Origin: Nitrospira sp.
Lineage (GTDB): Bacteria; Nitrospirota; Nitrospiria; Nitrospirales; Nitrospiraceae
Direction of reading: 5' to 3'
Length of the DNA: 64,000 nucleotides
NCBI GenBank assembly: GCA_030123605.1
Contig: CP126123.1
Location: 744,001 to 808,000 of the forward strand
Position 1 is the stretch's first letter; each line of letters starts with the position of its first letter. This document shows, one piece after another, positions 54,041-55,325 of this stretch. Made by a program: the position numbers and the translations under genes. The notes beneath the pieces were generated by a model. It saw nothing but the letters and a program-made list of their open reading frames with translations, was not told the origin of the DNA and did no database searches.

Positions 54041-54313
54041 CTACGAATGGATGAGGTTCGGAATGTTCGTGATGATCTGAGTCATGAAGGCGATCAAGAC
54101 CCCCATCATCCAAGGCAGAAACAGGAGGGTCGCCGCAAACACCGCCAGCACCTTCGGCACGAACGTCAAGGTGGCTTCGTTGATCTGCGTCATCGCCTGG
54201 AAGGTGCTGACCAACAGGCCGACGATCAGGCTCAACCCCAGCACCGGTGCGGAGACCAACATCGCGGTCTCGATGGCTTGGCGACCGATTTCCGTCACGG
54301 CTTCAGGCGTCAT
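54041..54313 (-). CDS. fliQ: FliQ: small flagellar export membrane protein
   Basis: A 90-residue export gate subunit with two membrane helices (around MLVSAPVLGLSLIVGLLVST and LLFLPWMMGVLIAFMTQI). It has the FliQ pattern QAMTQINEATLTFVPK in the loop. ATG 54313 has TAGGAG upstream. It is separated from fliP by a 211-bp gap that holds a REP/MITE-like element. Confidence 0.94.
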   Translation of the reverse strand: MTPEAVTEIGRQAIETAMLVSAPVLGLSLIVGLLVSTFQAMTQINEATLTFVPKVLAVFAATLLFLPWMMGVLIAFMTQIITNIPNLIHS

Positions 54314-54401
54314 GGGCGCTGCTCCTATCAGATTCTTGAAAAACTATTTCGCACTGCAAACACGCTTTCGGTGCAAACCTCGAAACGACATCGAAAGGCC
54401 G

Positions 54402-54524
54402 CAGGATGGTCAAACAGGCCGTCAGCGCGGCCGCAGCGAGCAAAGAGGCGAAGCGTACTGTGAGCCGTACGGTGAGCCTCTGCGCGATGCGAGAACAAAG
54501 CTGACGGACTGTTTCAACATCCTG
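54402..54524. repeat. MITE/REP-like inverted-repeat element between fliP and fliQ
   Basis: A 123-bp segment bounded by 25-bp inverted ends (54402-54426 and 54500-54524) that match at 22 of 25 positions; the ends begin CAGGATG and end CCGTCAGC. Inside are further inverted matches, including GAGGC/GCCTC around 54446-54480 and GCGTAC/CCGTAC-type arms. Its right end abuts the fliP stop codon (54525). No ORF is inside. The structure fits a non-autonomous mobile element or REP sequence. I recall similar intergenic repeats in Nitrospira genomes but cannot check that here. Effect on fliP-fliQ mRNA is unknown. Confidence 0.8.
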
Positions 54525-55325
54525 CTATTGAAAACTCTTGACCATCGATCCGACGACCAGATACCAGCCGTCGGCGAGGACGAACAGAATCAGTTTGAAC
54601 GGGAGCGAAATCATGACGGGCGGCAGCAGCATCATCCCCATGGACATCAACACGCTGGCCACCACCATATCGACGATGAGGAACGGGATGTAGAGCAGGA
54701 AGCCGATCTGAAACGAGATCCGCAGTTCGCTCAGGACGAAGGCGGGAATGATCACATGCGTCGGAACCTGCTCCACCTGGGCGGGTTTGGGCGCATGCGC
54801 CAATTCCAAAAAGAGTTCGAGATCCTTGTCGCGCATCTGTTTCAACATGAAGGTGCGAATCGGTTGGATGCCGCGATTCCAGGCTTCGTCATAGCCGATT
54901 TGCTCCGCCAGGAGCGGCTGCAGGGAATCTTTGTAAACCGCCTGTCCGACCGGCGCCATGACGAACATGGTGAGGAACAGCGCCAGACTGATGAGGACTT
55001 GGTTGGGCGGCACCTGTTGCGTGCCGAGAGCCTGCCGGAGGAACGACAGCACGATGACCATTCTGGTGAAGGAGGTCACCATGATGAACAGGGCGGGTGC
55101 CAATGAAAGCACCGTCAGAAGCGCGAGGATTTGCAGGACCACCGCCGTCTGTTTGGGCCCGCCTTGACCGAGGTCGAGCGTCAGCGAGGGCCCGTCGGCC
55201 TGGGCCGATGAGACATGGCAGAGGCAACAGACGAGGAACAGGCTGAGGCTGAGCAGGCGGCAGAGTCTCTGCGACAAGGCCGCCGTAGGATTTGCCACAA
55301 GCGGCGTCGGATCAGCTGGACGCAC
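54525..55325 (-). CDS. fliP: FliP: flagellar export gate protein
   Basis: Core export gate subunit. A signal peptide (about residues 18-43, core LLSLSLFLVCCLCHVSSAQA) precedes four membrane segments (for example VLQILALLTVLSLAPALFI, LISLALFLTMFVMAPV). Family motifs include MVIVLSFLRQALGTQQVPPN and ELRISFQIGFLLYIPFLIVD. 266 residues, normal. The start is GTG 55325 with AGGAGG six bases upstream, overlapping the fliO end by 14 nt. Confidence 0.95.
   Translation of the reverse strand: MRPADPTPLVANPTAALSQRLCRLLSLSLFLVCCLCHVSSAQADGPSLTLDLGQGGPKQTAVVLQILALLTVLSLAPALFIMVTSFTRMVIVLSFLRQALGTQQVPPNQVLISLALFLTMFVMAPVGQAVYKDSLQPLLAEQIGYDEAWNRGIQPIRTFMLKQMRDKDLELFLELAHAPKPAQVEQVPTHVIIPAFVLSELRISFQIGFLLYIPFLIVDMVVASVLMSMGMMLLPPVMISLPFKLILFVLADGWYLVVGSMVKSFQ

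Follow-up and report, generated by a model that had tools for sequence, protein, structure and literature searches.

The ERIC elements (ERIC/IRU) of Enterobacteria, palindromic intergenic units of about 127 bp, are among the described systems closest to the element analyzed here. They have been reported at the 3' ends of genes (PMC10969869), and the Correia elements of Neisseria, with an original size of 204 bp (PMC10969869), are short multi-copy MITEs with a stable RNA fold, which carry promoters and can sit inside transcripts. REP/BIME palindromes, associated with RAYT (Y1 tyrosine) transposases, lie close to stop codons, and insertion of E. coli IS5 results in a 4-bp target duplication, for example of CTAA or CTAG (PMC11677980).

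Against this background, we analyzed the fliP-fliQ junction in a 64,000-nucleotide stretch (the window) of a Nitrospira genome (contig CP126123.1). The element found there is very probably a non-autonomous MITE of the IS5 family, moved by the transposase of an IS5-type insertion sequence with the same ends and duplicating a YTAR-like target. By description, its hairpin half resembles ERIC/IRU in size, palindromy and intergenic position, the differences being that the complete unit measures ~200 bp, duplicates 4 bp of YTAR and has an insertion sequence as its candidate partner. The resemblance to Correia elements extends to copy number, RNA fold and a possible location inside transcripts, whereas the genus and the ends are different and no promoter match was found in the fliP-fliQ region. 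Like REP/BIME units, the element is palindromic and close to stop codons, but it has terminal inverted repeats (TIRs), a target-site duplication (TSD) and a DDE, not a tyrosine, transposase as the candidate source of mobility. With the IS5 family (NF033581, IS5_4) it shares the 4-bp YTAR duplication and the TIRs of the Nitrospira members; at ~200 bp, however, the MITE is too short for a transposase, and its interior has no similarity to the insertion sequence that would be evident on inspection. No published description of this MITE family was found among the open-licence literature; as far as our searches reach, the family is new, and it is ordinary in kind.

The 196-bp element between fliP and fliQ

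The preliminary description had recognized a palindromic 123-bp block with inverted arms and an internal palindrome, located between the fliP stop and fliQ. Both the palindromy (26-nt arms at 54401-54426 and 54500-54525, 88% complementary; inner palindrome of the hairpin at 54444-54458 and 54467-54481) and the position (according to open reading frame coordinates, both genes on the minus strand) were borne out. Its boundaries need revision: the hairpin stands, whereas the supposed terminal ends are the right TIR and an internal inverted near-copy of this TIR, and the block represents only the hairpin half of an element that reaches 72 bp further toward fliQ (Table 1). This extent is given by empty sites. 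The fliP stop and the fliQ start are 9-11 bp apart, free of the element, in 27 congeneric genomes, vs. 211 bp in the window's genome; compared with its closest relative, whose element-free junction reads ..CAATAGGAGTCGCGCCCATG.. with CTAT occurring once, the window has 200 bp extra, i.e., the 196-bp element and a second CTAT. Thus, with all 27 congeners empty and a single CTAT in the closest relative, the insertion is lineage-specific, and the suggested insertion hot spot at this junction finds no support. For nine further MITE copies, the closest relative likewise has an element-free junction, with a base-clean alignment for at least two of them (CTAA and CTAG). The ends of the window copy are decayed yet recognizable (six mismatches at the left end), its duplication is one base off YTAR, and its short length leaves no coding capacity for a transposase.

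Table 1. Features of the fliP-fliQ locus (window coordinates) and longer, module-bearing MITE copies (G000 coordinates)
Feature	Coordinates	Strand	Remarks
TSD, fliQ-proximal	54325-54328	.	CTAT on +, ATAG on transcribed strand; within fliQ ribosome-binding sequence ATAGGAG; 27-congener empty-site comparison
Complete MITE, 196 bp	54329-54524	+	Left end CAGATTCTTGAAAAAC, right end CATCCTG
Left TIR, decayed	54329-54346	+	CAGATTCTTGAAAAACTA vs. consensus CAGGCTGCGGAAAAACTC, 6 mismatches
Left arm, differs among subfamilies	54347-54400	+	
Long hairpin (block of the preliminary description)	54401-54525	+	Folding, pairing across 121 copies
Right TIR	54507-54524	-	CAGGATGTTGAAACAGTC on minus strand
TSD, fliP-proximal	54525-54528	.	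CTAT; reverse complement ATAG contains fliP stop TAG
fliP, 266 aa, intact	54525-55325	-	
fliQ, 90 aa, intact	54041-54313	-	Ribosome-binding TAGGAG upstream
Module-bearing longer copy, L317	G000:C1:11438-11675		
Module-bearing longer copy, L316	G000:C1:832277-832515		
Module-bearing longer copy, L313	G000:C1:898854-899094		
Module-bearing longer copy, L321	G000:C1:1407036-1407338		
Module-bearing longer copy, L027	G000:C1:2931386-2931625		
Module-bearing longer copy, L315	G000:C1:3092917-3093152		
Module-bearing longer copy, L026	G000:C1:3283704-3283941		

The MITE family and its candidate mobilizer

The window's genome contains ~40 copies of the MITE (46 matching stretches, some of which are two parts of one copy). 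A search for the right-end motif gave ~43 occurrences, compared with zero in the reversed control. Related copies were detected in 38 of the 41 genomes searched (the window's genome included), all from one order and reaching its other families; a scan of named genomes gave, among the matches listed, only Nitrospira/Nitrospirota records. The expectation of a repeat with further copies in the genome was therefore confirmed, and the notion of a one-off palindrome, arisen by chance or by local duplication, for which we found nothing in favour, is to all intents ruled out by the genomic copies together with the empty orthologous sites. When flanks were aligned, half of the 129 copies studied proved to have a left end, CAGGCTGCGGAAAAACTC, whose distance from the hairpin is mostly 77-80 bp; it lies at this near-constant distance with at most 6 of 21 mismatches in 65 copies. 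Both ends could be recognized (at most 7 of 18 mismatches) in 80 copies, the length between duplications being mostly 198-201 bp. Identical 4-bp flanks were found in 36 of these 80 copies, vs. 16.7 expected on re-pairing (maximum 29 in 10,000), the commonest duplications being CTAG, TTAG and CTAA (YTAR).

A transposase gene flanked by the same ends, which the preliminary description had proposed to look for, was found in an IS5-type element of the closest relative and of other congeners. In the closest relative, this insertion sequence (PF01609) has the ends TAGCAGGCTGCGGAAAAACCC and TAGCAGGCTGCGGAAAAACTC, which match the MITE left end at 20 of 21 and 21 of 21 positions, and is flanked by CTAG on both sides; a second, near-identical copy and its relatives in other congeners have the same ends. 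The transposase, encoded at G001:C1:1204610-1205698 (363 aa, domains DUF772 and DDE_Tnp_1), scores 285 bits with the NCBIfam model NF033581 (IS5_4; cut-off 140), and 203 with the IS1182 model, under the cut-off of 270. Quite likely, then, the MITE transposes in trans: the DDE transposase of the IS5-type insertion sequence would recognize the MITE TIRs, move the ~200-bp unit and insert it, through a cut with a 4-bp stagger, into a YTAR-like target, which is thereby duplicated. At E<=1e-10, the window's genome yielded no homologue of this transposase, though it does contain other IS5-type transposases; the MITE copies there may be stranded. A sister group of IS5-type elements (L256, L258, L266-L269, L278, L280; ~43% protein identity) has the ends TAGCAGTGTGTTGACAAAC / TAGCAGGCTGTTGACAAAC and is a possible partner of the MITE subfamily with TGTTGAAAAAC ends. 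Another complete genome of the genus (G004) is almost without the MITE (one weak match), the module described below and the IS5_4 transposase.

The alternative assignment to REP/BIME-type palindromes spread by a RAYT has some appeal in that the element is palindromic, extragenic and close to stop codons, and the genome has two RAYT-type Y1_Tnp (PF01797) genes. We consider it very improbable: the units measure ~200 bp, their TIRs are long and they are flanked by a 4-bp duplication, no convincing MITE ends were found within the 3.3-kb loci of these two genes (the sole TIR-like match has 5 mismatches and is unpaired), and the matching ends belong to a DDE insertion sequence. Since this insertion sequence in the closest relative combines matching ends with a CTAG duplication, we favour an IS5-family MITE over REP/RAYT. 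Of the initial label "MITE/REP-like", only the first half is thus retained; TIRs and TSD speak for it, as do the copy number, the empty sites and the candidate for an autonomous partner. An IS630/Tc1 origin (TA duplication), prompted by TA at the ends, was rejected: the PF13358 loci have no flanking TIR pairs, and the duplication is 4 bp.

Tolerance of insertions and the hairpin RNA

The target at fliP-fliQ was CTAT, which reads ATAG on the coding strand and lies at the overlap of the fliP stop with the fliQ ribosome-binding TAGGAG. Its duplication rebuilt both the stop and the ribosome-binding sequence, one for each gene, so that fliP and fliQ survived and the insertion was tolerated; we infer tolerance rather than benefit. 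Family-wide site statistics, obtained at three gene-call thresholds and approximate given that genes came from a simple codon model, show a strong avoidance of coding sites (odds ratio ~0.05). Of the 51 copies whose duplications are intact, 17-20 coincide precisely with a stop codon, ~4x expectation (odds ratio 3.8 to 5.6 vs. other non-coding YTAR sites of the same loci). Targeting of stop codons was nevertheless rejected, as sites just downstream of stops are about equally enriched (odds ratio ~1.4, not significant); with this equality, tolerance of insertions at 3' ends suffices without targeting, and the simplest reading of the site bias is a survival bias.

Strong folding of the element as RNA, proposed at the outset, agrees with the prediction for the hairpin (-65.8 kcal/mol vs. 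-41.0 in shuffles, z -6.96; as DNA, z -7.06). Across 121 copies, 95.6% of cells retain pairing, vs. 89.6% in shuffled sets (maximum 90.2), and compensated changes are present. In the family, the hairpin stem is followed by T5 tracts on either strand, a terminator-like layout, which raises the alternative of a mobile bidirectional terminator kept for insulating gene 3' ends. The presence of at least T5 on the strand that is read, seen in 51 of 64 co-directional copies, the enrichment at gene 3' ends and the ratio of convergent to divergent sites (27:11, p=0.014) would fit this proposal. Tolerance alone, however, would also give the position bias, and T-tract integrity shows no dependence on context, being the same at co-directional and convergent sites (p=0.29), on which ground we set the terminator hypothesis aside as rather unlikely. 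The window copy itself does not qualify as an intrinsic terminator, for which an uninterrupted T-tract would have to follow a GC hairpin: the tracts read TGTTT on each strand, and no terminator match was found in the fliP-fliQ region by a scan that takes loops of 3-8 only. Because both T-tracts are interrupted, termination is unlikely here, and transcription likely reads through into fliQ, yielding a transcript with a stable RNA hairpin.

Such a hairpin may affect how stable the fliP-fliQ transcript is or how it is processed. The stronger proposal, that the insertion is adaptive and tunes the FliP:FliQ ratio by stabilizing or cleaving the polycistronic mRNA, draws on the very stable fold, on the cutting of Correia elements in mRNA by RNase III (PMC10969869) and on the matching substitutions in the two arms of the window copy (AAACAG / CTGTTT). 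Matching changes would, however, also arise from inverted-repeat arms correcting one another, and the insertion is confined to the window's lineage (0 of 27 congeners), so that we regard adaptive tuning as improbable and retain the tolerated MITE insertion.

A folded module in longer copies

Longer variants of the MITE carry a ~65-nt module at fixed places in the hairpin, in either the left or the right arm or in both (Table 1). The module is strongly conserved and comprises three helices with compensated stems and a conserved GAGNNGGTGA loop, and occurs in most searched genomes of the genus, with up to ~70 per genome and none in the reversed control. In 41 module sequences, gathered with a pattern in which some loop positions and one strand of helices are fixed, 97.4% of cells are paired and slid structures collapse; two-sided changes amount to 89 cells, a number reached by 0 of 500 shuffles, and RNAalifold on its own predicts nearly the same fold. 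Much of this covariation signal could, however, stem from the kinship of the copies and from inverted arms correcting each other. That the long hairpin and, in longer copies, the module are selected structured nucleic acids, acting as functional RNA or DNA (e.g., in transposition or host-gene regulation) and not as passive filler, is a tentative suggestion from predicted folds that we hold to be possible but doubtful.

The Rfam search of the window region gave no match at E<=5, and for the loci with longer variants the single match was an adjacent cobalamin riboswitch at one locus (L316:1269-1472, minus strand), with ~100 bp between it and a long copy of the MITE. At five loci (L340, L341, L351, L333 and L346), the module occurs without recognizable MITE ends nearby, and some of these modules adjoin a different GGCGTAC...GTACGTTGAGG core. 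These occurrences without MITE ends suggest a wider superfamily around the module.

Overall, this analysis has identified a family of short elements abundant across Nitrospira (nitrifiers), together with the likely source of its mobility. At fliP-fliQ it illustrates how a 4-bp duplication lets a transposon enter the overlapping stop and ribosome-binding sequence of a tight operon with neither gene broken. The covarying structural module is undescribed and is the part of the finding most deserving of specialist attention.
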